A stretch of DNA of 64,000 nucleotides from Argopecten irradians (Eukaryota; Mollusca; Bivalvia; Pectinida; Pectinidae), in the NCBI RefSeq assembly GCF_041381155.1, contig NC_091141.1, forward strand, positions 21,286,828 to 21,350,827, in the 5' to 3' direction. The notes beneath the pieces were generated by a model. It saw nothing but the letters and a program-made list of their open reading frames with translations. It did no database searches and was not told the origin of the DNA. A program made the translations under genes and the position numbers. Positions 18,811-44,303 of this stretch are shown piece after piece; the stretch's first letter is position 1; the number at the start of each line of letters is the position of its first letter.

Positions 18811-18892
18811 ATGACGAATACACAGGTGTACTTTCTTCTACTTGGTTTTCTCCTCGTCCTACCCGCCTTCATCACATGCCAAGGAGTCAATG
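18811..18892 (+). CDS. Exon 1: signal peptide
   Basis: ATG opens MTNTQVYFLLLGFLLVLPAF followed by ITCQGVN. A hydrophobic core of about 15 residues and a likely cleavage after ITC (mature start Gln, able to form pyroglutamate) make a classical signal peptide. The exon ends AATG with donor GTAAGA, leaving phase 1. An open continuation past the donor runs into an inverted repeat, which supports splicing here. Confidence 0.8.
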
Positions 18893-21800
18893 GTAAGATT
18901 GATTTGTTTCAATGTTATGTTATATCCGTACTTATGATCTTGCCACAAATAACTTTTTACCATTAAGAAAAAAAGCTGCGACGACAGTTATGTTTTGGAT
19001 GATTTTTGTATGATATATCATACAAAATATAACTGCTATCGCAGCTTTTTTCTTTATGGTAAAAAGTTACTTGTGGCAAGATCACAAGTACGGAAAAAAT
19101 GCAATGTGTAAGTATTGTGGTTTAAGACAAAAAAAAAGTTTAAATACTAAATTTAAAAACTGCTCTCTTACCTTTTACCGCATTGTGCGTTTTATTGTCC
19201 TTGAAAAAATCTTGTAATTTATCAAGTGTAAGTAAATTAATTTCCATGACTGTCAGGATAGGAAATCAGCTATTGTCTCTGTATGGTCAGGGGACCCTAT
19301 ATTTATATTAGTTTATCTGTTTTAACGTGTACTTACAAAAGTTTTATATGTGGACATAAGTAAAAAACTGATGTAAAGTTAGCAACATCTATCACTAATT
19401 AACAATGATATAAATATGTCAGACATACAAAATTATTGATAACATCCAAATATTGAATTTTTCACAAATTGTTGTTACTATCAAAATACTGTAAACCAAC
19501 TGTCTTTAACGTGCGATTTATTTTCGCAAATTTCGCTATCAAGGTAAATTCGCGAAAGTTTATCTCTGCGAATTGATGTCTTCCGCAATTCTTACACAAT
19601 TAAATTCAAAGGTATTTCCGTTCAATGTTAAATACCCGATACTTGATCTCCAAGAACATGCTTTGAAACAGAAATTACGACGTTGATTAGCCTCGACAAT
19701 TGGTTTACAGTTTTCCATAATGTATATAAACGTGAATGATTGCCGTTTTGTATTTGTTTGACATCATGTTCTGGTCAATAGCAATGATTTTTTGATAGGA
19801 GCATCATTTTGTATAAAACATAACATAAATGACATAAAAAATATTATCTAGTATTTTTCGTTCAATGTTGTTTCTAAAAAGATTTTGATTCTTAAATGGC
19901 ATATTGATTGAACAATATACGTGATTTGCAACATTTAAATGGTGTCGACAAATTTGCTATTATTTGTGTTTTCCGCAAACATAATTGATTTAGTTGTGAT
20001 TTCTCTAACAGGAAACTGTTATTAGTAATGTTGGTAACTGACAGGGTATTCTGGTATAAGTAATGTTGGTAACTGACAGGGTATTCTGGTATTGGTGATG
20101 TTGGTAATGTTGGTAACTGACAGGATATTCTGGTATTGGTAATGTTGGTAACTGACAGGATATTCTGATATTAGTAATGTTGGTAAATGACAGGATATTC
20201 TGGTATTAGTAATGTTCGTAACTGACAGGATATTCAGGTATTAGTAATGTTGGTAACTGACAGGATATTCTGGTATAAGTAATGTTGGTAACTGACAGGG
20301 TATTCTGGTAGTAATGTTGTAACTACAGATATTCTGGTAATGTTGGTAACTGACATGTAATGGTAACTATATTCTGGTATTAGTAATGTCCGTAACTGAC
20401 ATGATATTCTGGTATTAGTAATGTTCGTAACTGACTGGATATTCTAGTATTAGTAATGTCCGTAACTGACAGGATATTCTGGTATTAGTAATGTCTGTAA
20501 CTGACAGGATATTCTGGTATTAGTAATGTTCGTAACTGACAGGATATTCTGGTATTAGTAATGTTCGTAACTGACAGGATATTCTGGTATTAGTAATGTC
20601 CGTAACTGACAGGATATTCAGGTTTTAGTAATGTCTGTAACTGACATGATATTCTGGAATTAGTAATGTTCGTAACTGATGTACAGTTGGACAGACCTTT
20701 CTCAAAGCAAGTCTCGTTGAACAGTTACCAGCCAGTATATAATTAAACAGAAATAAGTAAAGCATTAAAGCTGCAAAAGGTTTGCAAAACAATTTTATTT
20801 AAAAAAGGAATTTAATATTTCATTTGCGTATCTTCAGCTCAATATATCTATTCCTTTCGCCGCCCTTTGATATTAAACACGGTATTGCTTTGTTTTCGAT
20901 TTTAATTTTTCTATGAGGTTTGTAACACAATCAAGATCTCAGTACAAGTGAAGCAATACTTGGATATATCATATTCGAACAATAGTTATAATTTTCTCCA
21001 AAACCTTCAGAAGTGACTTTCTACGATTTGCAGGTGGTCAATTTTAGGTGTAAGTTTTCATCTCTAAAGTTAAAACTGTTTATGAATTAGCAACACCAAT
21101 GCGTTCCTTACCAGTCCAATATCAATAGAAAGCCCTGTCGACTTGTTTAGATGTGTGATGAAGAATAAGTAAATTCAAAGTCTATGAAATATCCAAAATT
21201 CGCCATTTTCAAAATTTAATCTAAAATAACTAAATGTGTCTTAAGTTTCCTACTAAATGCCGACGCTTTTTGTTAACAGAACTCTTTTAAGAATACGTTT
21301 ACTGCGTTTACTGAATTTACCCTAACAAACTTTTATAGCTGCCCCTGTAATTTGTTAATATATACCTAGAAAAGCTGTTTTCTCGGACGGGAAATGATGT
21401 ATCTATTCAAAAAAGTTCGTAAAGTTATATGTACTGTAATTTTCATACTGAGTGATCACGACGAACTTTTCACATGTTATTCACCACTAAATATTACACA
21501 CATCTGAGAAATATGATTCGTATAATGTATAAGTTTTAGTTTCACACAGACAATTAAGAGCTTCTGCCTATATGGTCATATTACTATTAGTAATTGTGAA
21601 GTGACTGATACCGATATGGTTCATCGAAACATACTTATCATAAAAGCACTGACAGTCCGAAATGTCGGTGTTGCAGCTAATGTTATAAGGCATAATAAGT
21701 GTATGTCTGTGTCTTTGAAAGGATTTCACATCTTAATTCATCAAAACCTTCTCGTTTGCAGCAGATTATAGAAAAAGGAATAACATATCAAAATCTCCGC

Positions 21801-27800: not shown

Positions 27801-30800
27801 ATGGCCGACAGTCGGCCATCTTGGATTTTGATAGTTGAAGTTTGTTACCGCTATTTCTCAAAAAGTGCAGAAGGGATCTTTCTCAAATTCCATATGCAGG
27901 TTCCCCTAGGACCCTAGTTGTGCATATTGCATTTTGGGACCATTCGCCATTCGGTGAACAAGATGGCCGACAGGCGGCCATCTTGGATTTTGATAGTTAA
28001 AGTTTGTTATCGCTATTTCTCAAAATGTTTAGAAGGGATCTTTCTCAAATTTCATATATAGGTTCCCCAAGGTTCCTTGTTTTGCATATTGCATTTTGGG
28101 ACCGATCGGTCAACAAGATGGCCGACAGTCGGCCATCTTGGATTTTGATAGTTGAAGTTTGTTACCGCTATTTCTCAAAAAGTGCAGAAGGGATCTTTCT
28201 CAAATTTCATATACAGGTTCCCCTAGGACCCTAGTTGTGCATATTGCATTTTGGGACCAAAAAGTGCAGAAGGGATCTTTCTCAAATTTTATATATAGTG
28301 TGTTTGAAAAAGTCCCTCTTTCCATTGTCAGACCCAGATCATTCTTTGGTGGGCGCCAAGATCCCTCTGGGATCTCTTGTTAGGTCATCTGACCCGAAGC
28401 CGTGCGCCTTCCGCCGTCCGTGAATTTTTCACATTTCAATCTTCTTCTCAAGATTGACCAGTGCGATTAAGCTGAAACTTACATGAAATGATCCTGATAT
28501 GGTCCCGACCAAGTGTTGTTATTTTTCGGGTCGATCCGGAATCCAAGATGGCCGCCACAGCCGCCATCTTGAATGAAAACACATTTTGAACTTCTTCTCA
28601 AGTTCTACTAGTGCGATTTAGCTGAAACTTGCATGAAATGATCCTGATCTGGTCCCGACAAAGTGTTGTTAATTTTTGGGTCGATCCGAAATCCAAGATG
28701 GCCGCCACAGCCGCCATCTTGAAAACTTATTTTGAACTTCTTCTCAAGTTGTACAAGTGCGATTGAGCTGAAACTTGCATGAAATGATCCTAACATGGTC
28801 CCGACAAAGTGTTGTTATTTCACGGGTCTATCCGAAATCTAAGATGGCCGCCACAGCCGCCATCTTGATAACACATTTTGAACTTCTTCTCAAGTTCTAC
28901 TGGTACGATTTAGCCGAAACTTGCATGAAATGATTCTGCCATGATCCCGACAACGTGTTGTTATTTTTCGGGTCGATCCGAAATCAAAGATGGCCGCCAC
29001 AGCCGCCATCTTGAAAACACATTTTGAACTTATTCTCAAGTTCTACTTGTGCAATTTAGCTGAAACTTGCATGAAATGATCCTGACATGGTCCCGACAAA
29101 GTGTTGTTACTTTTTGGGTTGATCCGAAATCCAAAATGGCCGCCACAGCTGCCATCTTGAAAACACATTTTGAACTTATTCTCAAGTTCTACTGTTGCGA
29201 TTTAGCTGAAACTTGCATGAAATGATCCTGACATGGTCCCGACAAAGTGTTGTTATTTTTCGGGTCGATCCGAAATCCAAGATGGCCGCCACAGCCGCCA
29301 TCTTGATAACACATTTTGAACTTCTTCTCAAGTTCTACTGGTGCGATTTAGCTGAAACTTGCATGAAATGATCCTAACATGGTCCCGACAAAGTGTTGTT
29401 ATTTCACGGGTCTATCCGAAATCTAAGATGGCCGCTACAGCCGCCATCTTGATAACACATTTTGAATTTCTTCTCAAGTTCCACTGGTGCGATTAAGCTG
29501 AAACTTGCATGAAATGATTCTGAAATGGTCCCGACAAAGTGTTGTTATTTTTTGGGTCAATCTGAAATCCAAGACCGATGCCACAGCCGCCATCTTGAAA
29601 ACACATTTTGAACTTATTCTCAAGTTCTACTAGTGTGATTTAGCTTAAACTTGCATGAAATGATCCTGGCATGGTCCCGACAAAGTGATGTTATTTTTCG
29701 GGTCGATCCGAAATCCAAGATGGCCGCCACAACCGCCATCTTGAAAACACATTTTGAACTTATTCTCAAGTTCTACCAGTGTGATTTAGCTGAAACTTGC
29801 ATAAACAGATCCTGACATGTTCCCGACAAAGTGTTGTTATTTTTCGGGTCGATCCGAAATCCAAGATGGCCGCCACATGAAATGATCCTGATATGATCTG
29901 GTTGATCCCAAATCGAAGGTGGCTACCATGACACCATATATGATTAATTTGACTATTGACCGTTAAGGTCCTTGGGCATCTTGTTTGTTTCAGTAGTCTA
30001 TCGCTCTCCTTGCTTCAAAATTGTTTCAGGTAGCAAAACTTGTATCATTGTATCGTTTCATATAACAAAACAAGTATTGACTTTTTGTAGGTTAATACGA
30101 GGAATTGTTAAACTTGAGAAAGGTGATATTCCCCGAGGCCGAATATTTGTTAATTATTGAACATGTAACATATATAATATCAACCACATCCATATGGAGA
30201 GAAATGGTATAGAATTCATTTGACTGTATCATCTTCACTGTCGATCACATTTGTTGAATTAAAATTTCATTGTTTTTATCATTGTATTTGCTAGATTACA
30301 TGCTAGAAGAGGAGGAAGAAGATGTACTTACGCCCATACAGATACTAAAAAAAGGAGTAAGTATTTTTATATCCATTTCGTCATGGTGACTATTTATCGT
30401 TGTTTCCGTGGACATTGTGATTATATTAAGTCGATCATACCACGTGATCAATTATAGTTAGTGTATTGATGATACTGAACCACCAACAATCTATTTGACG
30501 ATACCTAAAGATACTTTAGTGTTATCATTTCAACTTCAGACATAAGTGTTGTTATATTGAGGATATTTTGAGATGTTAAGATACCATGCTATTGGCATAA
30601 TCACAAGATTTACATGTAAATAAGTATCAGCATATTGATCACACCAAGAGATGCCTAAGTGTTATTTCGATAGATTTATTGAGTTTTCTATTAATATATT
30701 TCGAGAGGATTGACTGATATTGACATTGATAACAAGATATACATGTAATAAGTATCATCATATTGACAAGCTTCACAGAATATTCAATATCGTTTACGGA

Positions 30801-33800
30801 TATGATAGATTTTATAAAATACAAAACATGTCGTTATACCTTCAGAAAGAAAGAAATGAAAGACGATTTGAATTAAGGGACATCAGATATGTTAATTGCA
30901 GACGTTTGGTAGTTCCTGGTATAAATGTTTTATGGATAAACAGCTCTTCCTATATGTACATTCCACAAACTAGTGGCAACCAAAATATCCTCACAAATAA
31001 TCCAGCATTATAAATTAAAGTATCAACATGCCAAAAATATTTTACAAAGTCTTGTGGAACAGATGAAATATGCATTTGTAGCTTCTCATATTTCATCAGC
31101 CAGGGTTAATGATATAATATATTCGCTTTGTCCATTAATCTTTACAATGCTTCTAATTTAAACCTAATTTAGGCTAATTAGTAACGTCAGTATAAGACAA
31201 TTGTGTTCATGTAATATAAACACTAATAAGTGATTGTTGACGTCAGTATCAGACATTTGTATCCCTGTAATATAAACACTAATTAGTGATTGTTGACGTC
31301 AGTATAAGACATTTGTATCCCTGTAATATAAATACTAATTAGTGATTGTTGACGTCAGTATAAGACGTTTATATCCATGTAATATAAATACTAATTAGTG
31401 ATTGTTGACGTCAGTTTAAGACATTTATATCCCTGAAATATAAATACTAATTAGTGGTTGTTGACGTCAGTATAAGTCATTTGTACCCCTGTAATATAAA
31501 CATTAATTAGTGATTGTTGACATCAGTATACGTCATTTGTACCCCTGTAATATAAACACTAATTAGTGATTGTTGACGTCAGTATAAGACATTTATATCC
31601 CTGTAATATAAATACTAATTAGTGGTTGTTGACGTCAGTATAAGTCATTTGTACCCCTGTAATATAAACATTAATTAGTGATTGTTGACGTCAGTATACG
31701 TCATTTGTACCCCTGTAATATAAACATTAATTAGTGATTGTTGACGTCAGTATAGGACATTTGTATCACTGTAATATAAACACTAATTAGTGATTGTTGA
31801 CGTCAGTATAAGACATTTATATCCCTGTAATATAAATACTAATTAGTAATTGTTGACGTCAGTATAAGACATTTGTATGCCTGTAATATAAACACTAATT
31901 AGTGATTGTTGACGCCAGTATAAGACATTTGTATCTCTGTATACAATACTGTATGCTGTAATATAAACAGTAATTAGTGATTGTTGACGTCAGTATAAGA
32001 CATTTATATCCCTGTAATATAAACACTAATTAGTGATTGTTGACGTCAGTATAGGACATTTGTATCCCTGTAATATAAACACTAATTAGTGATTGCTGAC
32101 CTCAGTATAAGACATCTGTATCACTGTAATATAAACATTAATTAGTGATTGTTGACGTCAGTATAAGACATCTGTATCACTGTAATATAAACACTAATTA
32201 GTGATTGTTGACGTCAGTATAAGACTTTTCATCATTGTAATATAAACACTAATTAGTGATTGTTAACTTTGCAGCAGAGTATTATGGTAAGTATAATTTA
32301 ATAACGCTTCTCTATCCTCTCTCTGCGTGGTTTTCTATCTGAGCGAAAGATTAATCACAGAATTGTCACTTGCGCTGCTTCTTGCTACTTATCTATGGCG
32401 TACGACTATAATCTCTAACTGTCTATCATTGTTGTATTATTATAATATACAGGTAAGAAAAATCTCAATCTCTCTTCTTATGTACTATGTACTATTCGGT
32501 GCGTTTTGTCATTTTGTGATGTTTGTCTGAATGGGTAAATATGGTTTACTTTGCGTGACTGATTTTCACACTTTAAGATATGATTGGACCAGTGAACGGT
32601 GTACCTGTAGAATCACTGGTTGATTTTTGAGACTAGTTTGCCACAATACTGTATGCTGTTATATTATGGCATGTGATGACACCAATATGGTGCAGCTTTG
32701 TTTGATAGCCTTTACAGGACGTCAGGATGCGTATAACAATAATTTATAGAGTTAAACTGAGGAATGATTTATTTACTAAGACAGTATTACACCAATCTGT
32801 AATAACCTGACAGAAAGACAAAAATAAAAATGATCAAAATTATAATGTGCACTTTACCACTAACACCTCGCGTCTTCTCGTCCAACACGAGATTCTCGTC
32901 TCCCTGGGATTGGGACAAACTGTTCTGAAAAGATGACTTCAGTGTGTTTAAGATGGACATTATCCGTATGTTTAATCTACTGATGTGCCGATTAACTGAA
33001 AACATCAATGTATTTTTAGATTACAAATGTCATACATCCGCATGGCACCGGTGTAGGGTAACACGTGTTACTATGGAGATACGGATGTGACGTATGAGGC
33101 ACTTTACAGGAGAATGGTTTATTTTATTAAAATAATAGAAATTGACAATTTTTAGATTTTATCTAGATCAATGATTTTTATCATTAACACATTGATATAG
33201 TGATCAAGAGAAAAATGCATTAGTAAAATAGTTAATCGGTATTAGAATGTTATCGAAATATTGTCTCCCGAATAGGAAATGCTGATATTAAGATTGGAGC
33301 GATAAAGTAAACAAACTAATGACTCAGTAATATCAAGTGCAATCACACAATGTAGTAACGTAAATCACGTGAGATGTAAGTTAGATACAAGGTGTAGTGA
33401 CCAGAGTTACGACTACTATGAATGATTGAGTTTTTATTAACGGTATTTAGAACTGGGTCACTTTCCTTCTTGATCATTGCAATTTGCTTTGCTTCTTTAT
33501 ACGTCAACAGTCTACTAGCAACAATACAGATTTGAACTGTATTCTACATTTAATCGAATTGAGGGAAATCCTCTTAAGAAAATGTTAGAGATGATACTTT
33601 AAAAAATAATTCTTAAGGTTCTTTCAAAAAATATTAAATGGTTTGCATGAAATAAAACAAAGCGCTTTTTCAGGATATGTTATGCATCTAATCAATAAGA
33701 TTATAATGTTTACATTGAATAAAAGCGCATTCTTTCTGCTTGCAAATTACTTTTTTTGGAACTATTTCAATTGCATTTGAGCATGCGCCCTTGATAATTA

Positions 33801-36800
33801 CTATATATACACCTTTATTTCATAGCCTAATCAATGAAATTTCTCTTCACAGGGTCTACGGGTGAGTTTGAGTATTGTATTATTTTTCATTATCCTGAGA
33901 AAAAATGAAATTCCCTCTTACCTTCTGGTGATGTTGTCTGTGTGTTAACTACCCTTTCTGATATCATGTGAGAAATTGTGTATCTCTGTTTTCTGTTGGT
34001 TATGTCTAAATCACCTTAATAAAAAATAGTGCTAATTATATCGGATATAACTGGCATAAATAGCGCATGTTTGTTAGAGTTAGATCGATCTGATCAAATA
34101 GGATGAAGGCATGCTTTTGTCATGTCGTCAGAGCCACGTATTGTGTCGGGGTATCTTTAATGTGAAAAAGCACAGGTCGCCAAGGGTTTACAGATTGAAA
34201 AGTCAAATCATTGACTCTTCAACACGTTATAAATCCGTTCATTGGCTAACAGGTGTTTTTAATGACAGTTGTGTGTTCGCCTATTGTTTTAGTATTTGTT
34301 TTGAACACTTCCTTGTTAGTTGTCTAATTATCACCTTCATTATTCACCTGCCGTGTAGTAATACGTTCATTCTTATACTTTTGGTATTGTAACTTTGATA
34401 TGTTATATCCGACATTTTGATTCCATTACTTTTTTTGACATACATCTATTTCTTGTAAAACCTATTTATTCTATACATTGTGATAAATACCCTAAGGGCT
34501 CCTTTGATTCCCTTTTCATTACATACATTTCGTGTAAAAAGAAACCCAATTATCCCCCTGTATGGGGAATTCCAATACATGTGGTAATGTTCAATGTTCA
34601 GATATGTTTTATATATAGACGTATGTCTTTAATATGACATAATTAGACAGAGAAGTATAAACATTCCTGTCACGAGAGCAATCTCCCACTACAGTGGTAT
34701 AACAGGCGTGACCTGTACTGTGGCGCTAGTAATTAAAACCGAACAAAAAGTAATTAGATTTCAACAAGTTTGAGACCTGCTCGTGCGGTAAGGGCGCTCT
34801 CTCTGTTACAAATACAGCCTGACAACAGTGCATACCTGATAATGCTACAAACTATCAATATCGGTAATAAATCTGGCTACAGCTGCCACTGAACATAGTT
34901 TCAAAATCGTGATCTCTCTGATAATTTGGTTGTTTGTTTAAATGTAATCTTTATGGTTTTTGAAAGATTAATTATAAACAGTTTAATCTATATATTTTAT
35001 TTCTATTTCCATTTCTTCCCCGTGGGATTATATAGATGGTAAGTGTTACTTTGACGTATTAAATCACCACATTCATGGTCAAATTTGGCATCTAGGTCTG
35101 TATGATTTATCCCTACAATGTTATTTATTCCAAATTAATGTTGTATTTTATAATACGTGTTACGATAATAATATATTTTTGTTTGTTTCAATGTTAAGTA
35201 TTCCATGACAGCTAATAATCCTTCAATGTTATAGAATCATAAATAAAGTTTCATTTCTTATTTCATATAAGATTTTATAAAAGAGTCTAAGAAGTCTGTT
35301 TTTAATTTCTGCGAGCCTTGACATGTGAAAACTGAATTGATTTTTTTATGTTAAAATGCCTTCAAACTACATTTAAATTTAAATCTTATTTTAATTTGAG
35401 TTTTATTTTGTTTTGATGCTGTCTGTCTGCTAACAGATGTGCCTAGTAAGTATAATTATTTTGATTTGTGTACACTGTAGCTCGATCTTGTTTGTGACAT
35501 TTGTTACATTATAATTTTCATAACGTACAGAGAAACGACTTCGTTGAAAGGAATATATGTATACTTTAAGCTTGCTCTCCAATTCTCAAATATTCTATGT
35601 TTGGTATGCATATGTGTATCAATATATGAGAAAATACAGTTTAAACTAAATGACTTCACCATTTGTAACGTCCCTTCTTATTTGTTGATATAACGGCGTT
35701 GTTTATTTTTCACGAGAAAAGAGTTCAAAGAAATTATTTATTGATATTTCAACCAAAAGTCTACAGCATAATGTTATAGTGATGTACCTGTAGGAATGGG
35801 ATACGATGTGTGTCATTGGTAGTGATCATGATGACCTAACATTTACAAATATCAAAACCCACTTGGATTATGATAACAATATAAACTGAACCGACAGCAT
35901 TGTCATCTGCGTCTTATATTTCTTGATTTACATTAGGATATTTGTTATACAGAACAGTATGTAATTATACTATGTTTATATAATGTTTATAACGGTTTTA
36001 TTTGTTATTATAGCTACATCCACGAGTAAGTACCGACTCCTTGACACTCAAATGTTGTTTTCTAAAGTTTGCTTCCTATTTCCTAAAATATCTGTATTAT
36101 ATATATATATATAAGATAGAATAATATAGATATTAAAGATATGTGTGCCGTACTGACGAATCTAGATCTTTTCATGCTATTCACCACCAAAGGTTTTGAG
36201 AATTATAATACTTTAAATGCATAGGTTTTAAGTATCCGCATTCAAATAAAAGCGCAGAATGTGTTTTTACAGTATTGTCCAAAAACATTATAAGTACATA
36301 CGGTCAGACAATAAATAAAAGCAGTTGTTTACAATTTCTTTTCAGATTGATGAAGATATGTTTTTATAAACATACATAAGGTACAAAAAAGAATTTTAAC
36401 AGTGCATAAATTATGTACTGTAAATAATGTATACAATGTATCGTACCTGTCTATTTGAATGAAATTCACAGTTAATTAATCAAACCAATGAAAGAAAACC
36501 ATTTTAAGATTTTCGCCTAGTTATGGCACATATAAGTTTAATATCGAGATAGTGTTCTGTCTGCCTACTCAGATGATCTTTTCTGTTCCCTTATGGCGCG
36601 GTGTCCCTTTGTGATTTGGATAAATAGAGAGCAACCAACTAAATAATTTTACATAGACCACAGTGTTAAACATTGTTAAAGTTTTGTACTGTATTATTAA
36701 AACAAAGGAATATTAGTTAGCTATTGTGTTCTATAATTAAAGTCTAGGTTCTCATATAACACTAAATAGAAAAAAAAGTTTGGGTCCTTCTGCTCAAACT

Positions 36801-39800
36801 CCAACCAGGGTAGCTTTATTGAAATCAGGCGCATTTTGCACTAAAAAATCCTGAAATTCTAATGCTTTTACCTATTCATTATCAAAGTTGATATTTTGAA
36901 TCTAAATCTCAATATGAATTTCCAAATTCATATCATGGTTATCTAGGAATAATTACCTGTCAGAAAACATTTTTACTTTTGAAATTCATAATTAGCCAGC
37001 CAATCAGCGGCCGGGTTAAAATTCTATCCTGGGCTCAAGGGGCCATTTCGAAGGTCTTTTTTTATTTAGTTGGTTGATCCCTAAAGACTTTAAACGTTTA
37101 TGTTGTAGTTCATTTTAATCCCTGTTTATTGCCATGCCTTAGTAATAAGTTACAGTGTTACATTTGTGTGTCAAATGTTCCAGTGTATTTGATCATCATG
37201 TATGTATAATTTGATTAGTAGGTCTTCTAGTAGATTTTTGTATCGAACCACACATAACTTCTTTTATGATAAATCTATTTTATTTGATAATTGCAGTTAG
37301 TTTGGATTAGTGATATCAGTCTTTTATCGTCTTTGGGATACAATGTTGTTTGTCAAGATTTCCATTATTAATCCCCTGCCGGTAAAACCGGGGGACTCTA
37401 TAGTGTTTTTTCCCGTCTGTCTGTCTGTCTAGATCTGTTTGTCCGGATTTTACAGATGATAATTAGAAAAAAAAATACTGATTTTGATCAAACTTCATAT
37501 GGGGAAAATAAAGCTTAGGTTTGAATTTGGGATAAAAAGTTCAACAACAAAGCTTACTGTTACTAAAAACAGAATGTTAGAAAAAAATTCACTTCCAGAC
37601 GATAACTTGAGAAAACATCAACGGATTTTGATAAAATTTCACACAATCGTAGCACATGAGAAAAAGAGAATTGGGATTGAATTGGGATCAAAAGGTCAAC
37701 TACAAAGGTTACTGTTACTAAAAATTGATTGTTTCACAAATTTTAGTGTCCGAATGAGAACACGTCAACGGAATTTGTTCAAACATTATACAATGGTTAC
37801 ATAGGAGAAAACATAGCAAGGGATTGAACTTAGGGGTCAAAAGGTCACTGTTACTAACAAAAATTTGTTTCATAAATTTTCGTTTGCAGACGAAAACCTG
37901 AAACAGAATTTGGTCAAACTTCATACAACGATAGCATAACTAAGCAATAATAACTGGCCATATATTAAAAACAAATAATTGACGGCAGGGGACGTGTGTT
38001 GCTTACTGTAAGCTTGTTTTACTTGATTTTATTTTGATATTGCCATCATAATTTGATTTTATTTTGATATTGCCATCATTTTCATATATAGAAATTCTTT
38101 AACATGATTTGTTCTTCTCAAATATCTGATAAAATTTTTACATCTTTAATTGTTAAAGTTGTATTTCTTGTAATTTTCACCGTCACAAACTGTCTTACTG
38201 ACATACAATGTTTGAGTATGTATGGTTACATATGATGGTTCAGATCCATAAAAGCACCAATATACTATTAAAATATCGGTAAATGTCGCATGAAATATCA
38301 CACGTTTTAAAAGAACCGCCACAGTCAACGCTATGTTTCAAACTTTCGGGTAATATCGGAAAACCAGGTTGCATTACGTGACCGACATCGGCATACCGAC
38401 ATACCCGTATAGATCGGAACCTCCCTGAGCCGTATCACGTGGTCAATATCGGCAATACCCGTACAGATCGGTATAGATCGGATCAGTACGGATACTTCCG
38501 AGCTATTTTAAACGTATACATGTTTATAATCAATATTTTAATTGAATTATTTTAGTAACTTTGCGAATACGAACTTTATCATAGTCGATAAATATCAAAA
38601 GTTCCAAACTTAGAGAGGCGGAGAAAAATATGTAGAACACTTTAAAACTTTTTCAGTGCCATAAATACAACAAGTCACAGACCATACAACTTTAAAAGCT
38701 TACCATACATAAGGGAGTTCCAGAACAGCTATTAATTGTACTTAAGCCGTGGAACACCTCCATAGAATTAGGATAGCTCGACATCAACTGTTAATATGAT
38801 GTGGGAGCATGTGAGAAAAATGTTAAAACATTGATGTTTAAAAATGTCATGTTTTAATTACTTTAATACCTTTAACTCATTTCAGTTTCGGTAAATCCCG
38901 CAGAGATTTAGGTATCGATGTTTTGTGAAAATTGTGTGTTCAGCATTGTACCCACGTGTCATCTAAAAGCTTTTCAATGTCACGTTGAGAAAATTTACAC
39001 TAAATGTGAACATTGAACATTGTCTCTGTGTATTTGTAATATGTCTTATTTTTTTCATTTTCAGAATTGTCCTGCTGGGGTAAGTTAACCTTTCACAACG
39101 TAATCATAGTATTTCATAAGTTCACCAAAATGATAAAGCCAAGGGAAAGAAGTAGCAATCACTATGGGAATGACTTATTGTTACAAAACGTTATGGCTAC
39201 AATGTGAACTTTATTGATAAGAAATTAAACTGAAGAGATTACGATAATTCCTGATATCTGAGTTCACTTATAAACGCGAATCTGGATTAACTGAAAGTGA
39301 ATATTTTGTTATTATCAATGTCATAGACAGTCGTTACATTATATATTTATCTTCTTTCAGTTCCGAAAACGAGACGCACCTAAAGTAAGTATTTTCCATT
39401 GATATTTCTTTAAAAATATGAGGCAACTAAATCTCATATTTACCTATAAACTTTTCGGCTTAATCTTAATTGGGCAATACACATTAGGATTGAATTTGGG
39501 GTCAAAAGGTCAATTACAAAGGATATTGTTACAAAAAAACTGATTGTTAAAACAAATTTTAGTTTCCGGATAATAACTTGAGAACACATCACCGGAATTG
39601 GTTCAATCTTTATACAATGACTAAGCAATAACAATAACATGCCATAAAGTAGAACATGTAATTGACGGCAAGGGACGTGTGTTGCTTGCAACACTTACTG
39701 TAAACTTGTTAAATTGTAACTTACATATAAATGACATCTACTACATAAATTCAGGAATAGTAAAATTTAAACGTATGTAAATATAAATATAGATTAGTAG

Positions 39801-40789
39801 AATCATATACAAGTGTTTGGAACCATGTGTTAAGGAAGAGTAATATTAACACCCTCAACAAATCTAGGAAAATTTCAGGTCAGGGCTTATGTGCTCCATT
39901 TAATAGAGACTCAATGATGTTACCTGTAATGATATTGATCGTTTAACATCTCTTGATAAACATAGTTAACATCACTTGATATAATTAGTTATAGTTAATA
40001 TCCCTTGATATAAAAAGTTATATTATATAAATAGTTATAGTTTAACATCTCTTGATATAAATAGTTATAATTTAATATTTCATGATACAAATTGTTATAG
40101 TTTAACAGCTCTTAATATGAACAATTAAAGTTTAACATTTCTAGATAAAAATAATTATGGCTAACATATCTTGATATGAATAGTTATAGGTAATATCTCT
40201 TGATATAAATAGTTATAGTTAAACATCTCATGACGTAAATAGTTATAGTTAAACATCTCATGACGTAAATAGTTATAGTTAAATATCTCATGACGTAAAT
40301 AGTTATAGTTAAACATCTCATGACGTAAATAGTTATAGTTAAATATCTCATGACGTAAATAGTTATAGTTAAACATCTCATGACGTAAATAGTTATAGTT
40401 TAACAGATCGTGATATAAATAGTTATAGCTAACATCTCTTGATATAAATAGTTATAGTTAATATCTCGTGATATAATTAGTTATAGTGAAACATGTGATG
40501 CAAAGAGTTATAGTTAAACATCTCATGACGTAAATAGTTATAGTTTAACAGATCGTGATGTAAATAGTTATAGCTAACATCTCTTGATATAAATAGTAAC
40601 AGAGACATGCATTCATTTCCACAGCTGACAGACAGCACTGCTGATATTAAACAACCTAGACGGAAAGAAATGATGAATATTTTACGTCGTTGGCTAAGGT
40701 CGTACTTGGACCAGAAGCACGACATTGTGGTGGACTATATGCCGAGGCGGATACTTCTCGGCGGAAGTAAACAAACCTCTCGTCGGTGA
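18811..40789 (+). CDS. Micro-exon gene for a secreted, prohormone-like protein (ten exons, about 130 residues)
   Basis: Ten exons join without a stop: 18811-18892, 30295-30356, 32275-32286, 33853-33861, 35036-35038, 35437-35445, 36014-36025, 39065-39079, 39361-39384 and 40625-40789. The first junction is phase 1; all later ones are phase 0. Seven internal exons are 3-24 nt long. The product has a signal peptide (residues 1-23), an acidic stretch, Lys-Lys, a Cys-x6-Cys loop, Arg-Lys-Arg, and a basic tail with three Arg-Arg sites and a final Arg-Arg. This is the arrangement of a secreted precursor cut by furin or prohormone convertases. The loop has the ring size, and a Pro at the fourth ring position, seen in allatostatin-C peptides, but the flanks do not match, so I assign no family. 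The symmetric micro-exons recall micro-exon genes of schistosomes; that is analogy only. Confidence 0.72.
18926..19093. mobile_element. Foldback (MITE-like) element in intron 1
   Basis: CCGTACTTATGATCTTGCCA at the left is the near-exact inverse of TGGCAAGATCACAAGTACGG at the right. The arms continue through ACTTTTTACCAT and AGCTGCGA to about 70 nt each. It starts 33 nt after the donor of exon 1. Confidence 0.85.
19094..20019. other. Intronic, nothing recognised
   Basis: AT-rich intron sequence without open frames, exon-like signals or repeats of note. Confidence 0.5.
20020..20680 (+). repeat. 35-bp minisatellite
   Basis: About 18 units of TATTAGTAATGTTCGTAACT plus GACAGGATATTCTGG are present. 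The first units carry TTGGTAAC, later ones TTCGTAAC or TCCGTAAC. The block at 20310-20380 is irregular. Confidence 0.9.
20681..22078. other. Intronic, nothing recognised
   Basis: AT-rich sequence. No exon, RNA gene or repeat family is visible. Confidence 0.5.
22079..22099 (+). repeat. G21 homopolymer
   Basis: Twenty-one consecutive G precede CGGCGGTG. On the plus (transcribed) strand of intron 1 this can form a quadruplex. The exact length is likely to be unreliable in sequencing. Confidence 0.9.
22100..23410. other. Intronic, nothing recognised
   Basis: Two overlapping plus-strand frames at 22987-23277 are AT-rich and unrecognised. No splice-compatible exon is evident. Confidence 0.45.
23411..24196 (+). 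repeat. ~71-bp minisatellite
   Basis: Eleven units start ATGTAACTTTGTACGATAAA, continue GTTCACCGCCACC and end ATTTATACATTATATAAT. The middle alternates between CTCTTCGTTATAC, CCCCTGGTTATAC and other forms, giving sub-families that run in blocks. Confidence 0.92.
24197..26007. other. Intronic, nothing recognised
   Basis: AT-rich unique sequence with no supported feature. Confidence 0.5.
26008..27086 (+). mobile_element. Helentron-like non-autonomous element, family 2, copy 1
   Basis: The 5' end is TTTTTAGCCCACCATC with ATCAGATGGTGGGCT, which folds into a terminal hairpin. A (CCGT)n tract at 26064-26141 follows, then about five units of ~155 bp (GTTATCGCTATTTCTCAGAA; GGTTCCCCTAGGGCCCTAG; AAGATGGCCGCC; GCCATCTTGGATTTTGATAG). 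The 3' end is GATCCCTCTGGGATCTCTTG plus TT, a hairpin next to the terminus. The layout matches HINE/pearl-type Helentron derivatives; that classification is inference. Confidence 0.8.
27087..27590. other. Intronic spacer between elements
   Basis: Unique intron sequence with a minus-strand open frame that carries no recognisable motif. No feature is supported. Confidence 0.45.
27591..28381 (+). mobile_element. Helentron-like element, family 2, copy 2
   Basis: It has the same hairpin 5' end, a shorter (CCGT)n tract, four core units with GGCCGACAGTCGGCCATCTT in place of the copy 1 hairpin, and the same GATCCCTCTGGGATCTCTTG plus TT end. The next element begins at the following base. Confidence 0.8.
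28382..29985 (+). mobile_element. Helentron-like element, family 3
   Basis: The 5' end is AGGTCATCTGACCCGAAG with CCGCCGTCCGTG. About ten core units of 146 bp follow: CTTCTTCTCAAGTTCTACTG, GCTGAAACTTGCATGAAATG, GGTCCCGACAAAGTGTTGTT, GGGTCGATCCGAAATCC, AAGATGGCCGCCACAGCCG, CCATCTTG. The 3' end is AAGGTCCTTGGGCATCTTGTT. There is no coding content. Confidence 0.8.
29986..30294. other. End of intron 1
   Basis: It carries a T-rich run (TTTTTATCATTGTATTTGCTAG) that serves as the polypyrimidine tract and acceptor of exon 2. Confidence 0.6.
30295..30356 (+). CDS. Exon 2: acidic propeptide ending Lys-Lys-Gly
   Basis: The acceptor TTGCTAG is followed by 62 nt. Entered in phase 1, it reads DYMLEEEEEDVLTPIQILKK and G, with no stop, and exits in phase 0 at donor GTAAGT. 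In the phase set by exon 1 it is fully open. It supplies five Glu in a row and a Lys-Lys that would be a convertase site. Confidence 0.78.
30357..31171. other. Intron 2, proximal part
   Basis: AT-rich sequence. Open frames at 30720-31161 have no splice context and are probably chance. Confidence 0.5.
31172..32264 (+). repeat. 56-bp minisatellite carrying CRE sites
   Basis: About 19 units contain CACTAATTAGTGATTGTTGA, CGTCAGTATAAGACATTTGT and ATCCCTGTAATATAAA. About 15 units have an exact TGACGTCA, the palindromic cAMP-response element bound by CREB/ATF proteins. Others have one change (TGACATCA, TGACGCCA, TGACCTCA). The last unit turns from GTGATTGTTGACG into GTGATTGTTAACTTTGCAG, so the array runs straight into the acceptor of exon 3. 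Confidence 0.93.
32275..32286 (+). CDS. Micro-exon 3, 12 nt (QSIM)
   Basis: TTAACTTTGCAG precedes CAGAGTATTATG, and donor GTAAGT follows. Phase 0 in and out. The acceptor is a tandem CAGCAG, so use of the second AG would drop Gln and leave a 9-nt exon. Confidence 0.65.
32453..32458 (+). promoter_or_regulatory. Possible recursive splice site (zero-length exon)
   Basis: TATAATATACAG abuts GTAAGA with no bases between acceptor and donor. This matches the structure of ratcheting sites. The pyrimidine tract before it is modest. Confidence 0.35.
32858..33005 (-). CDS. Candidate minus-strand first exon, unrecognised
   Basis: Read on the minus strand, an ATG at 33005 (MFSVNRHIS) or a second in-frame ATG at 32960 opens MSILNTLKSSFQNSLSQSQG followed by DENLVLDEKTRGVS. 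It reaches donor GTAAAG after 32858, leaving phase 1. GC content and codon use rise clearly within it compared with the intron around it. A cluster of palindromic binding sites lies just upstream at 33058-33094. No downstream exon was found, and the product is not recognised. It would be a gene nested antisense in intron 3. Confidence 0.4.
33058..33094. promoter_or_regulatory. Promoter-like cluster: E-box palindrome, X-box-like site, CRE half-site
   Basis: GTAACACGTGTTAC (33058-33071) is a perfect 14-nt palindrome with a CACGTG E-box. GTTACTATGGAGAT (33067-33080) resembles an RFX X-box with one mismatch. TGACGTA (33088-33094) is a CREB/ATF-type core. All three lie within 37 bp, 50-90 bp upstream of the minus-strand candidate ATG at 33005. 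Confidence 0.4.
33853..33861 (+). CDS. Micro-exon 4, 9 nt (GLR)
   Basis: A good acceptor (TTTCTCTTCACAG) precedes GGTCTACGG and donor GTGAGT. Phase 0 in and out. Confidence 0.68.
33862..35035. other. Intron 4
   Basis: Frames at 34111-34637 are AT-rich and hydrophobic by composition, without splice context. No other feature is called. Confidence 0.5.
35036..35038 (+). CDS. Candidate 3-nt micro-exon 5 (M)
   Basis: A pyrimidine tract (TTCTATTTCCATTTCTTCCC) and acceptor ATTATATAG are followed by ATG and donor GTAAGT. Including it adds one Met in phase 0; skipping it does not disturb the frame. It could instead act as a recursive splicing step. It is the least certain exon of the series. Confidence 0.45.
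35437..35445 (+). CDS. Micro-exon 6, 9 nt (MCL), first cysteine of the loop
   Basis: TGTCTGTCTGCTAACAG precedes ATGTGCCTA and donor GTAAGT. Phase 0 in and out. It carries Cys 1 of the predicted disulfide loop. Confidence 0.7.
36014..36025 (+). CDS. Micro-exon 7, 12 nt (LHPR), loop interior
   Basis: TTTTATTTGTTATTATAG precedes CTACATCCACGA and donor GTAAGT. Phase 0. It contributes only residues between the two cysteines, so skipping it would shrink the ring from six to two residues. Confidence 0.68.
36026..36626. other. Intron 7, first part
   Basis: AT-rich, with a short (TA)n run near 36100. Nothing else is visible. Confidence 0.5.
36627..37081 (+). mobile_element. TA-flanked MITE, copy 1
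   Basis: Terminal inverted repeats are GAGAGCAACCAACTAAATAA at the left and the complement of TTATTTAGTTGGTTGATCCC at the right. TA flanks both ends, suggesting a Tc1/mariner-type target. The body is non-coding (about 455 bp). Copies 2 and 3 lie at 40844 and 42050 in the same orientation. Confidence 0.85.
37372..38018 (+). mobile_element. Helentron-like element, family 4, full copy
   Basis: The 5' hairpin is CCCCTGCCGG with CCGGGGGAC; a CTGT-repeat tract follows. Three to four diverged units of about 140 bp (GGGATTGAATTGGGATCAAA; GGTCAACTACAAAGG; TTACTGTTACTAAAAA) come next, and the 3' end is GACGGCAGGGGACGTGTGTT then TAAGCTTGTT. A 106-codon open frame inside is a by-product. Confidence 0.7.
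38019..39064. other. Intron 7, distal part
   Basis: A GC-richer block at about 38370-38490 contains a local duplication (CACGTGGTCAATATCGG, CGTGACCGACATCGG, then ACCCGTAxAGATCGG twice). The last 20 nt (TCTTATTTTTTTCATTTTCAG) form the acceptor of exon 8. Confidence 0.5.
39065..39079 (+). CDS. Micro-exon 8, 15 nt (NCPAG), second cysteine
   Basis: A very strong pyrimidine tract and TTTTCAG precede AATTGTCCTGCTGGG and donor GTAAGT. Phase 0. It carries Cys 2 of the predicted loop. The string NCPxG also occurs in vasopressin-type peptides, but ring size differs and no neurophysin follows, so homology is not claimed. Confidence 0.72.
39361..39384 (+). CDS. Micro-exon 9, 24 nt (FRKRDAPK), convertase site
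   Basis: TTTATCTTCTTTCAG precedes the exon and donor GTAAGT follows. Phase 0. It encodes Arg-Lys-Arg, a furin/prohormone-convertase motif, placed right after the Cys loop. Confidence 0.75.
39457..39710 (+). mobile_element. Helentron-like family 4, 5'-truncated copy
   Basis: It matches the last one and a half units and 3' end of the element at 37372 (GGATTGAATTTGGGGTCAAA; GGGACGTGTGTTGCTT; TAAACTTGTT). The 5' hairpin is missing. Confidence 0.65.
39930..40605 (+). repeat. 30-bp minisatellite with TGACGTAA sites
   Basis: The degenerate early part reads TTGATATAAATAGTTATAGT. From 40220 the units become ATGACGTAAATAGTTATAGT plus TAAACATCTC, about seven of them with TGACGTAA, a CREB/ATF-type core. 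The array stops about 20 bp before the acceptor of exon 10. Repetitive minus-strand open frames here are artefacts of the period being a multiple of three. Confidence 0.9.
40625..40789 (+). CDS. Exon 10: basic C-terminal propeptide with stop
   Basis: CATTCATTTCCACAG precedes the exon. In phase 0 it reads LTDSTADIKQPRRKEMMNIL, RRWLRSYLDQKHDIVVDYMP and RRILLGGSKQTSRR, then TGA. Three Arg-Arg sites and a terminal Arg-Arg would free fragments such as WLRSYLDQKHDIVVDYMP. A weak donor (CAG/GTACTT) follows 3 nt after the stop, which would place a 3' UTR intron there. Other weak donors inside (GTAAAC at 40767, GTGACA at 40786) would change the C-terminus. Confidence 0.75.
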   Translation: MTDSTADIKQPRRKEMMNILRRWLRSYLDQKHDIVVDYMPRRILLGGSKQTSRR

Positions 40790-40843
40790 CAGGTACTTAA
40801 CATTCGATCTATTGAACTTTTTACAAGCATGAATTTGGTCTTA

Positions 40844-41316: not shown

Positions 41317-41321
41317 TATAG

Positions 41322-41464
41322 CAGAAATTAAAATTCCAATACTCACCTATGATGTAAAGTGTATTTCGGCTGTATGTCAAATCTGTAATACAAACTTAAT
41401 CGGTCAAGTGGTTTGTCCAGGACAGGGCTTCACCTTCGGACAGTCATTCGCGGAGCAATTATGA
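41322..41464 (+). CDS. Candidate alternative 3' exon, Cys-containing, unrecognised
   Basis: After acceptor CCCTATAG, phase-1 entry gives 46 open codons to TGA: EIKIPILTYDVKCISAVCQI, CNTNLIGQVVCPGQGFTFGQ and SFAEQL. Cysteines are spaced Cys-x4-Cys-x2-Cys-x9-Cys. A phase-1 donor (GTAAAC at 40767) exists inside exon 10. The minus strand also offers a 36-nt exon-like segment at 41347-41382, so strand is uncertain. It lies between two MITE copies and may be transposon sequence instead. Confidence 0.3.
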
Positions 41465-42049
41465 AAACATGAAATATTGAACTTACACACTGTGTTGATC
41501 AATGGCAAATTATGTATTAAATATTGAAATAGTATTAATGTTGTTTAAGTTAATTATTGGTTACATCATTAAACTTTCTGAATATAATGAAAAAATAGGA
41601 AAAGTCCCCAGCCAAGGGGAGATAATCCATTACATAAGCAGGTACCCCTATAATATAGAAAATGTCAAGATTTTGGAAGAAAACCAGATATACCAAACCT
41701 TTTACATATTCAAATTTACCAGGAACATGGTTCCAAAGCCTTTCTGTTTAAAATAAACAAATTAAATAAAGATCAAACCTGTAATGAGCACAAAAGATGC
41801 ATGTCTTTGTCCATGACTGGAATCTGTGCAGCCAACACATAGTTCCGGAAATCTTGAATGACCCTGAAACACCATTAATATGTTTCATTAACAGAAAAAA
41901 ATATTCACAAAATGGTATTTTTCTTCATTATAACATAAAATGCATACTTTTAATAAACTAATTAGCCCTAATATTACAATTAATCAGTACAAGTAGTTAA
42001 ATTGGCTTACCTGAGATGAACTCTTTTACTTCCGGTTGCGTTCGCTATA
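41465..42049. other. Spacer between MITE copies
   Basis: An AT-rich 84-codon frame (41502-41756) is present but unrecognised. Nothing else is supported. Confidence 0.4.
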
Positions 42050-42517
42050 GAGAGCAACCAACTAAATAATTTTACAAAGACCACAGTGTTAAACTTTGTT
42101 AAAGTTTTGTACTGTATTATTAAAACAAAGGAATATTAGTTAGCTATTGTGTTCTATAATTAAAGTCTAGGTGCTCATATAACACTAGATAGAAAAAAAG
42201 CTTGGGTCCTTCTGCTCAAACTCCAACCAGGGTAGCTTTATTGAAATCAGGCGCATTTTGCAATAAAAAAATCCTGAAATTCAAATGTTTTTACCTATTC
42301 ATGATCAAAATTAATATTTTGAACCTAAATCTCAATATGAATTTCCAAATTCATATCATGGTTATCTAGGAATAATTACATGTCAGAAAACATTTTTTCT
42401 TTTGAAATTCATAATTAGCCAGCCAATCAGCGGCCGGGTTAAAATTCTATCCTGGGCTCAATCTTGTATACACAGGGGCCATTTCGAAGGTCTTTTTTTA
42501 TTTAGTTGGTTGTTCCC
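42050..42517 (+). mobile_element. TA-flanked MITE, copy 3
   Basis: Same ends and body as copies 1 and 2. TA is present at the left; the right end passes directly into the next element at TTCCC/TTTTACCC. Confidence 0.85.
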
Positions 42518-43054
42518 TTTTACCCTACCAACATCAGATGGTGGGCAATTCAAATCGCCTTTCGTCCGTGGTCCATCCGTAAACAATTCTTATTTCCGCT
42601 ATTTCTCAGAAACTACTCAAGGGATCTTTCATTTATTTTCAATTTATTGGTTTCCCTAGGATCCAAGATGTGCACTGCATTTTGGGATTGATCCGTGAAC
42701 ACGATGGCTGACAGGCAGCCATCTTGGATTTTGATAGTGAAGTTTGTTACCGCTATTTCACAGAATGTACTTAAGGGATCTGTCTCAAATTTCATAAGTA
42801 GTTTCCCCTAGGACCCTAGTTGTGCATATTTCAATTTGGAACCGGTCGGTTAACAAGATTGACAACAGGACACCATTTTGGATTCTGATAATTGAAGTCT
42901 GTTACCGCTATTTGTCAGTACTGAAGGGATGCTTTTCAAATTTCGTATATAGTTTGTAGTAGAAGTTTAAAAAGCGCAGAAAATATCCCTCTTACCATTG
43001 TTAGACATCAACCATTCTTTGGTGGGCACCAAGATCACTCTGGGATCTCTTGTT
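42518..43054 (+). mobile_element. Helentron-like element, family 2, copy 3
   Basis: The 5' end TTTTACCCTACCAACATC with AGATGGTGGGC is a mutated version of the family-2 hairpin. There is no long (CCGT)n tract, about three core units, and the 3' end is GATCACTCTGGGATCTCTTG plus TT. It sits flush against MITE copy 3. Confidence 0.75.
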
Positions 43055-44173
43055 AAACAAATGTGCATGTGTAGGTAATTTTAAACGGGTAACGCAAACG
43101 TTGATTCTAATAATGACTTTTTCATGCATGCCTTTTGGATACTTGATAGTTTTTTCCCAATTAAGTAATTTCCGCATGTATTGTTTTCGATTCCATTAAT
43201 AATACATAGCAAGTCCCTATTGGATGATGCTCAATAAATATCCGTAATTTGATTCACAGAATGTAAACAATGTTGTAATATGACAGTATGTGCGTGTTTC
43301 CCTATATTACTAGGGGGTGGATTTGTTGGGACGGGATCATTGTTTTAATTACATATGTCATTTTCAGCTCTGACAAAAACATATTTATTTCGTATTTCTC
43401 AATCAATAATAATTTTGTATCGTTCTATCATCCGCATCTAAATAATAAAAAAGGAAAGCGGTATTGGTTTAAAGTGAGCCGTACCCAACCCTTGGCCCTC
43501 GTTCCAAATAAAATATGGGGATATAGACAAGTAAAACAAGAATTCATTTATAAAAGCTAACAATATGAATAAGTGTCAGACATGGATGATGTCAGGGGAC
43601 ATAGATTATGTCAGGGGACATGACCGATATTAAAACAAACATTGGGAAACGTCTAATGCATGGGGAAGGTTAGATACAATCGATTTCCCTATATCCCTAG
43701 GTAGCTCTGAAGAACCCATGCCAAGTATTAGCTTTGCTTGGCTTGGCTTTACCAATAACGTGAACGATACGCTTAGTTGGTGCTAAGTCTCGGCATGTGG
43801 CTATTTTCGTGTGTGGAGGTTTTCGTTAAGTCAGTTTTCCAACTGTTCATTGTGTGGTATACTGTTCATCAATAGCCTTATTATGTCGAGATGTATTTTC
43901 GCGGAGATTCAATGGAAGCTGACTCAGCCAAAATGTCCTCCAGTACAGTATAAAACAATCTACCAACCAGCATGCACGAGTTCTCTTGGTTAATTGTACT
44001 TCAAAATACAAGCTGTGAAACAGCCTCTATAACCTTTAAGATGTGTGAAAGTTGGCGAGATATGATTATTTTCAGATTTTCGTTTAATATTTGATAGAAG
44101 TTTTCAAGGAAGCCACTAACCCAGACTACAGATAGGACAATACCTTATATGAATATCCCTTTGTCTATTACAG
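43055..44173. other. Distal intron, nothing firm
   Basis: A short direct duplication (GATGTCAGGGGACAT, twice) lies near 43590-43622. Open frames at 43288 and 43811 are unrecognised. The end (CCCTTTGTCTATTACAG) is a good acceptor. Confidence 0.5.
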
Positions 44174-44303
44174 GTACCCAGCCAGACAACGGAACCTCTC
44201 GTTGATGGACTCCTCTCGTCGAGACTCTGTTGCAAAAGATTTAAGAAGACTAATTGAAAATACAGAAAAAATGGGAAAAATAGGAAAAAACATTGTATTT
44301 TAA
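44174..44303 (+). CDS. Candidate last exon: 3' UTR or alternative coding 3' end
   Basis: After acceptor CTATTACAG the sequence is open in two frames. Phase 0 (for example directly from exon 9) gives 27 codons, VPSQTTEPLVDGLLSSRLCC and KRFKKTN, stop at 44255. Phase 2 (from GTGACA at 40786) gives 42 codons, including RNLSLMDSSRRDSVAKDLRR, stop at 44301. Phase 1 gives a short TSR ending. If the normal exon 10 stop is used, this is 3' UTR. AACCTCTCGTTGATGG echoes AACCTCTCGTCGGTGA at the end of exon 10, hinting at a duplicated terminal exon. Confidence 0.5.

Follow-up and report, generated by a model that had tools for sequence, protein, structure and literature searches.

The forward strand of the Argopecten irradians window (the whole 64,000-nt stretch of DNA that was analyzed, to which all positions refer) carries what seems to be a gene for a small secreted peptide precursor, with a middle part that appears to be made of seven exons of 3 to 24 nt. 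This bivalve gene, which extends over approximately 25 kb and includes a series of symmetric micro-exons, probably encodes a small secreted peptide prohormone. An initial annotation had proposed a micro-exon gene encoding a secreted precursor, and this is still the best reading of the locus, supported by its anatomy, by an excess of candidate micro-exons over chance and by the join between exons 9 and 10 in a protein from the scallop Mizuhopecten yessoensis.

The coding part of exon 1 (82 nt; 18811..18892, + strand) includes the start codon, a signal peptide called by eye, MTNTQVYFLLLGFLLVLPAFITCQGVN, and the first base of the next codon, and it is followed by a GTAAGA donor in phase 1. Exon 2 (62 nt; 30295..30356, + strand) encodes an acidic spacer, D-YMLEEEEEDVLTPIQILKKG, and KK, and ends in phase 0 before a GTAAGT. 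The seven micro-exons that follow on the + strand (micro-exons 3 to 9) have lengths of 12, 9, 3, 9, 12, 15 and 24 nt, respectively. Micro-exon 3 (32275..32286) encodes QSIM, and its CAGCAG acceptor makes a 9-nt version also possible; micro-exon 4 (33853..33861), with a GTGAGT donor, encodes GLR. The least certain of all is micro-exon 5 (35036..35038), a single ATG encoding M, which has a strong donor and a weak acceptor (score 2.5) that does not pass the strict acceptor filter. Micro-exon 6 (35437..35445) encodes MCL with the first cysteine, micro-exon 7 (36014..36025) LHPR, micro-exon 8 (39065..39079) NCPAG with the second cysteine, and micro-exon 9 (39361..39384) FRKRDAPK, which contains a KR processing site. 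Exon 10 (40625..40792, + strand) encodes LTDSTADIKQ...PRRILLGGSKQTSRR, followed by a TGA stop codon (40787-40789), and two donors compete at its end, CAG/GTACTT after 40792 and TCG/GTGACA after 40785. Exon 11 (44174..44303, + strand) has a strong acceptor; with the 40785 donor it would add 42 open codons (YPARQRNLSLMDSS...), and otherwise it would be 3' untranslated. The predicted precursor therefore has 130 aa, or 172 aa with the alternative last junction, and the micro-exons account for 84 of 393 nt of the coding sequence (84 of 519 nt in the long form), approximately a fifth. The presence of micro-exons 3 to 8 in the mRNA is predicted from the sequence of the window alone.

All seven micro-exons are preceded by AG, and six are followed by GTAAGT and one by GTGAGT; the segment lengths and flanking signals listed in the initial annotation were thus reproduced to the base. 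The join between exons 1 and 2 is in phase 1, and all later joins up to exon 10 are in phase 0. As all seven micro-exons are in phase 0 and divisible by three, each could be skipped without breaking the frame, and all 128 possible inclusion patterns leave the reading frame open; without micro-exon 6 or 8, the product would have one cysteine fewer. In-frame upstream stop codons limit micro-exons 3 to 9 in phase 0 to 27, 24, 3, 12, 12, 63 and 84 nt, respectively, which rules out longer versions in this phase; in other phases, lengths of up to 143 nt would be possible. When the acceptors with scores above 0 in these stop-bounded stretches are compared, the predicted one is the sole in-frame choice for six of the seven micro-exons and the better of two for micro-exon 3. 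All splice-site scores given here come from matrices based on general metazoan frequencies and serve for ranking only. Of the 9 GTAAGT or GTGAGT sites on the + strand between 29901 and 41000, 8 close exon 2 or a micro-exon. The earlier statement that nearly every GTAAGT follows a tiny segment holds for this 11-kb core but not for the whole of 18811-44303, where the same 8 are found among 16 sites on the + strand. The position 44303, at which the earlier annotation ended, is where a possible final exon read in another phase would stop; exon 10 carries its own stop codon.

A strict scan of the 11-kb core identified seven candidates, all divisible by three, which correspond to the six micro-exons that pass the strict acceptor filter and to a nested acceptor inside exon 2. 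In 1000 dinucleotide shuffles, candidates with lengths divisible by three numbered 0.45 on average (maximum 4) and those of any length 1.24 (maximum 7). Both strands of 20 random 10-kb stretches from the same genome were used as a genomic control, and these 40 strand-windows showed a mean of 0.2 candidates divisible by three (maximum 2) and of 0.725 candidates of any length; one donor-rich control stretch (40 donors) had six candidates of any length, just one of which was divisible by three. With a relaxed acceptor rule, the region 29901-39900 yielded exactly the seven micro-exons, compared to three or fewer candidates in every control.

The search with an 82-aa query returned a sole candidate, KP79_PYT18747 (E 1.2e-13), a 73-aa "hypothetical protein" of M. 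yessoensis. The two proteins share 42 of 68 aligned residues across micro-exon 9 and exon 10, including all 8 residues of FRKRDAPK, which is joined to exon 10 at the predicted point, and both proteins have the same C-terminal SRR end. Nothing of the signal peptide, exon 2 or micro-exons 3 to 8 is present in KP79_PYT18747, where MSHQP stands directly before FRKRDAPK; no stretch encoding MSHQP was found on the + strand of the window. The last micro-exon is thus confirmed and all upstream parts are missing, which shows the gene to be real and misannotated in Mizuhopecten, and the expectation that such a gene would be unannotated or misannotated was borne out in this relative. Since exons 1 and 2 are also missing, the start of KP79_PYT18747 is most likely an annotation artefact; micro-exons 3 to 8 may be skipped, absent or different in Mizuhopecten, and a start with MSHQP rather than NCPAG speaks neither for nor against them. 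Among the basic sites, KP79_PYT18747 retains KR, SRR and the PRR that precedes ILLGGS, but has lost the RR found in LRRW; at the PRRKE site the relative has RK, so a basic pair is still there. This comparison covers micro-exon 9 and exon 10, as exons 1 and 2, with the signal peptide and KK, are missing in the relative. This case represents a concrete annotation blind spot: the Mizuhopecten protein retains one micro-exon and neither the signal peptide nor the loop peptide, and its product is therefore not recognizable as secreted. Further invertebrate peptide genes may be missing through the same blind spot.

The absence of segments 3 to 8 from the sole relative, which has exons 9 and 10, could also indicate a conventional gene in which exons 1, 2 and 10, possibly with 9, are used, whereas segments 3 to 8 resemble exons by accident within introns or act as rare cryptic exons. 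Exons 2 and 10 could be joined in frame without them, since both borders are in phase 0, and the acceptor of the 3-nt exon is weak. We nevertheless consider this unlikely, given that the relative lacks exons 1 and 2 as well, which points to an annotation artefact, and that five of the six segments pass the strict filter, compared to at most two candidates in any of the 40 control strand-windows. Moreover, segments 3 to 8 are all in phase 0 with upstream stop codons near, and when joined they yield two cysteines followed by KR. Recursive splicing, where some of the AG/GTAAGT-type sites would be ratchet points for stepwise removal of a long intron and leave little or nothing in the mRNA, would suit the gene extent of approximately 25 kb, and its chief candidate sites are the 3-nt ATG and a 0-nt AG/GTAAGA at 32453 with a good score. 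Other 0-nt sites nearby score equally high, however, so the one at 32453 may be due to chance; ratchet points leave no exon, whereas six of the seven segments are 9 to 24 nt long, all have lengths that are multiples of three and one serves as coding sequence in the relative, which makes this explanation quite improbable. Random splice-site look-alikes strung between unrelated exons would be hardly credible. While a single segment of this kind is nothing unusual (the 40 control strand-windows contain 29 candidates when every length is counted), six occur here within 7 kb, compared to an average of 0.2 for 10 kb of control sequence, and for exons 9 and 10 chance is already contradicted by the homologous protein that spans their junction.

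A different question concerns the C-terminus, as the normal form could possibly, although we lean against it, be one in which exon 10 is cut at 40785 (TCG/GTGACA) and coding continues into exon 11, adding 42 codons and two further RR sites. The 42-codon open frame of exon 11 exists only in the phase set by this donor (27 and 9 codons in the other phases), the acceptor of exon 11 has the top score in the gene and its first 77 nt have a GC content of 49%, compared to 35% for the window. By contrast, GTGACA scores 3.45 against 6.92 for CAG/GTACTT, GC content is as low as 19% in the final 53 nt of exon 11, and the Mizuhopecten protein stops at the exon 10 stop codon. A splice choice resulting in two C-termini would be compatible with the prohormone as the best explanation.

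In the proposed prohormone, the exon 1 signal peptide would direct the product to the secretory pathway and exon 2 would form an acidic spacer with KK at its end. Micro-exons 3 to 8 would encode a 20-residue stretch, QSIM-GLR-M-MCL-LHPR-NCPAG, with two cysteines six residues apart, and micro-exon 9 would supply the KR cleavage site; exon 10 would contribute a segment of 44 aa that another scallop shares in conserved form, followed by RR, ILLGGSKQTS and a terminal RR. Prohormone convertases could cut at KK, KR and RR, releasing a putative disulfide-looped peptide, for which GQSIMGLRMMCLLHPRNCPAGF is the candidate, and one or more linear peptides, with DAPK...DYMP and ILLGGSKQTS as candidates, and the products may have a hormone-like role. 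The amphipathicity of a helix in exon 10 was not significant (6% and 8% of shuffles were equally high).

Further searches in Pfam, PDB and protein collections found no known family matching the gene product. A search of the 846-Mb genome for a second copy, with E values of up to 10 allowed, returned 4 matches, each to an exon of this same gene; micro-exons are too short for such detection. Among 5.8 billion proteins, searches that demand shared 5-residue words and similar length found no relatives beyond KP79_PYT18747; none of the 36 candidates for the 172-aa form scored, the length limits placing the 73-aa relative outside the reach of this query, and a two-sequence profile added nothing among 18 candidates. 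The PDB gave no match with a single sequence, and its best match, a cell-division topological specificity factor (E 0.055), was taken as chance. The same applies to Pfam DUF1347 (E 0.21 and 0.083) and, in the exon 11 frame, to ATR1_N (0.042), Peptidase_C11 (0.08) and an AAA lid domain (0.19); none of these Pfam matches reached the curated cut-offs. Peptide fragments (LLHPRNC, HPRNCP and others) led to no paper with this peptide; FRKRDA matched two scorpion-venom papers, taken as unrelated, and "micro-exon" with "bivalve" retrieved a vaccine review only. Passages of the bivalve surveys PMC5996578, PMC4200219 and PMC8398477 do not contain the peptide, which their supplements could still list.

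Micro-exon genes (MEGs), known from parasitic flatworms, "appear to be restricted to platyhelminths" according to a 2015 paper (PMC4350168), and the operational definition given in PMC7653826 comprises at least seven exons, at least half of them micro-exons (<70 nt, divisible by three). Conditional on our gene model, the layout of the scallop gene agrees with this definition: it has 10 or 11 exons, of which 7/10 or 7/11 are micro-exons in this sense, arranged as a run of seven with one of them confirmed in the relative; exon 2, at 62 nt not divisible by three, is no micro-exon by this definition. As described for schistosome and tapeworm MEGs (PMC4671649, PMC7653826), the signal peptide lies in a comparatively long 5' exon, tiny symmetric exons follow one another ahead of a longer 3' exon, the predicted product is small and secreted, and the gene is hard for gene finders. 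Among the traits given for schistosome MEGs (PMC4671649, PMC4350168), the location of all or most of the signal peptide in a long 5' exon is shared by exon 1, as called by eye, whereas very small symmetric exons do not form most of the coding region (84 of 393 nt). The scallop gene also differs from flatworm MEGs in its mollusc host, the lack of a detected second copy, its dibasic prohormone sites and the extra asymmetric exon 2, and no flatworm protein was matched among the 5.8 billion proteins in searches based on shared 5-residue words and similar length. A MEG layout in a bivalve gene that resembles a peptide prohormone gene would mean that this arrangement is of more general use and not peculiar to parasites. 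A broader proposal, which we regard as rather doubtful, is that a mollusc builds, and by skipping varies (up to 128 frame-preserving forms with fixed cleavage sites), a disulfide-looped peptide hormone; the flatworm micro-exon strategy would then have arisen independently for signaling peptides and be masked in other bivalves by annotation that loses such exons.

The predicted product resembles molluscan neuropeptide precursors in its signal peptide, dibasic sites and short two-cysteine peptide, but it matched nothing in Pfam significantly, and protein searches linked it to no named family. Vasopressin/conopressin was considered and rejected, as the ring is C-x6-C followed by PAGFRKR rather than C-x4-C with PxG-amide, as in scallop conopressin (CFIRNCPPGamide), and the Pfam scan showed no neurophysin domain. 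Mammalian casein genes likewise encode part of a secreted product in series of short, skippable phase-0 exons, but they are not related to the scallop gene and have longer exons of about 20-45 nt.

The gene region was read base by base, and every claimed splice site was located in the window. Exon 1 (18811-18892, + strand) encodes the signal peptide and ends at a phase 1 donor, GTAAGA, while the acidic exon 2 (30295-30356, 62 nt) ends in phase 0 at GTAAGT. These are followed on the same strand by seven phase 0 micro-exons, numbered 3 to 9, which encode QSIM (32275-32286), GLR (33853-33861), M (35036-35038, 3 nt), MCL (35437-35445), LHPR (36014-36025), NCPAG (39065-39079) and FRKRDAPK (39361-39384), and by exon 10, which begins at 40625, reads LTDSTADIKQPRRKEMMNILRRWLRSYLDQKHDIVVDYMPRRILLGGSKQTSRR and has its TGA at 40787-40789. 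Joining of exons 1 to 10 gives a predicted 130-aa product, MTNTQVYFLLLGFLLVLPAFITCQGVNDYMLEEEEEDVLTPIQILKKG-QSIM-GLR-M-MCL-LHPR-NCPAG-FRKRDAPK-LTDSTADIKQPRRKEMMNILRRWLRSYLDQKHDIVVDYMPRRILLGGSKQTSRR. An alternative donor after 40785 would reach exon 11 (44174-44303, + strand) and lengthen the predicted product by YPARQRNLSLMDSSRRDSVAKDLRRLIENTEKMGKIGKNIVF to 172 aa. The 3-nt exon, the choice of exon 10 donor and the placement of exon 11 appear to be the less certain parts of this model.

The initial annotation held that nearly every GTAAGT follows a tiny in-frame segment; this is true of the core of the gene (29901-41000), where 8 of the 9 + strand GTAAGT/GTGAGT sites lie at the end of exon 2 or of a micro-exon, but not of the whole gene (8/16). 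A strict scan of the core (YAG, at least 9/15 pyrimidines, no nearer AG, and 3-30 nt to GTRAGT) identified seven candidates, all divisible by three, which represent six of the seven micro-exons and an acceptor nested within exon 2; the 3-nt micro-exon 5 was not picked. Dinucleotide shuffles (n=1000) gave 0.45 candidates divisible by three (maximum 4) and 1.24 of any length (maximum 7). In 20 random 10-kb stretches of the A. irradians genome, scanned on both strands (40 strand-windows with a mean of 4.65 donors), the means were 0.2 (8 in 40, maximum 2) and 0.725, respectively, and multiples of three were not favoured (8, 7 and 14 candidates by remainder after division by three). The highest control, a stretch with 40 donors, had 6 candidates of any length, only one of them divisible by three. 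Moreover, under a relaxed acceptor rule the candidates in 29901-39900 were exactly the seven micro-exons, and no control had more than three. With a Poisson mean of 0.2, P(>= 6) is 7.5e-8, which is a guide only, as genuine genomic sequence shows more clumping than a Poisson model assumes.

If these are the donors used and the reading is in phase 0, the micro-exons must be short, since nearby upstream stops set upper limits of 27, 24, 3, 12, 12, 63 and 84 nt for micro-exons 3 to 9; the best in-frame acceptor was the predicted one in all seven cases. Other end phases permit stretches of up to 143 nt. Apart from one piece beyond exon 9, the 150-nt flanks of the micro-exons did not match the 20 control stretches. 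Compared with the rest of the window, the sequence to the left of exon 3 proved to be a tandem array (18 matches, of which the 4 listed all lie outside exon 3), and that to the right of exon 9 resembled a short repeat (3/3 matches outside exon 9). A 56-bp tandem array at 31184-32264 ends 10 nt before micro-exon 3, and the introns also hold arrays with periods of 35, 70, 155, 146 and 30. Intron 1 contains 21 consecutive G (22079-22099). At 32453, between micro-exons 3 and 4, an acceptor is fused to a donor (tatacag/gtaagaaa), which may be an exon of zero length or a ratchet point for recursive splicing; a number of further 0-nt acceptor/donor sites score about the same. Three copies of an element of about 470 bp (36624-37083, 40841-41313 and 42047-42520) flank exon 10 on both sides; judged by eye, these limits enclose inverted ends like GCAACCAACTAAATAA, and aligned pieces are 83-98% identical to the first copy. 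The element is a MITE-like repeat and probably young.

An 82-aa query comprising the micro-exons and exon 10 had a single match among 5.8 billion proteins, the 73-aa hypothetical protein KP79_PYT18747 of the scallop Mizuhopecten yessoensis (E 1.2e-13), which reads MSHQP-FRKRDAPK-MTSDAAMPESLPVRKDLMNILSRMLRSYFDNTQTNQRQDIVVDYVPRRILLGGSRDNSRR (hyphens added) and is identical to the predicted product at 42 of 68 aligned residues. FRKRDAPK and exon 10, separated by 1.2 kb in the window, are contiguous in this protein and join at the predicted residue. In a relative, therefore, micro-exon 9 is coding sequence, and so is the place where it joins exon 10. Both sequences also end at the same SRR. KP79_PYT18747 gives no support to micro-exons 3-8; the five residues ahead of FRKRDAPK, MSHQP, are unlike NCPAG, and no stretch encoding them was found on the + strand of the window. 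The protein has neither signal peptide nor exon 2, so that the start annotated for it is most likely artefactual. A profile built from both sequences did not find a third family member, and a search of the A. irradians genome matched only exons of this gene.

The anatomy of the product suggests a prohormone, in which the signal peptide would be followed by an acidic spacer with a net charge of -7, then KK, a peptide with two cysteines, KR, a segment of 44 aa (its Mizuhopecten counterpart has 50 aa), RR, ILLGGS... and RR. KK and KR sit at the two ends of the micro-exon run, and the putative loop peptide, encoded by exons 3-8, takes its first cysteine from exon 6 and its second from exon 8. In this comparison of just two sequences, KR, the PRR ahead of ILLGGS and the final RR are common to both species, while the RR of LRRW is absent from the Mizuhopecten relative. 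The PRRKE site is VRKD there; the basic pair RK remains, and this site may therefore still be cut. All 128 of 128 micro-exon inclusion patterns stay in frame, and each skipped exon would thus cost the product between one and eight residues; loss of exon 6 or 8 would leave an unpaired cysteine, and loss of exon 9 would remove KR. Constitutive inclusion is equally compatible with the data.

One published definition of micro-exon genes (MEGs) sets a minimum of seven exons, of which half or more must be shorter than 70 nt and divisible by three, with four or more such exons consecutive (PMC7653826); the scallop model has 7 among 10 or 11 exons, all seven consecutive. It also has the layout given in PMC4671649, in which two longer exons, the 5' one containing most or all of the signal peptide, flank a centre mostly of exons below 36 bp, except for the 62-nt exon 2. 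By comparison, PMC4350168 describes MEGs as apparently restricted to platyhelminths, with very small symmetric exons forming most of the coding region, whereas here micro-exons account for 84/393 nt. The protein searches (5.8 billion proteins) found no sequence relation to flatworm proteins. Therefore, the gene works like a MEG and qualifies as one by one operational definition, yet does not belong to the families known from flatworms. No bivalve micro-exon gene appeared among the literature matches listed, preprints and most closed journals being outside the coverage.

Elsewhere in the window, open frames at 5063-5723 contain apparent LINE endonuclease sequence, including the GDFNINL motif, and at 7839-8808 repeated open frames (SLSTNNPKSVNFTRKLFY / VSQPTTPSQSTSQENYST) run in three frames across a tandem array. 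In the A. irradians genome, 9 of the 13 listed matches to globin-like exons lie at 43-68 Mb on a single contig, here designated G000:C3 (loci L007-L011, L013 and L015), and perhaps represent an expanded family.
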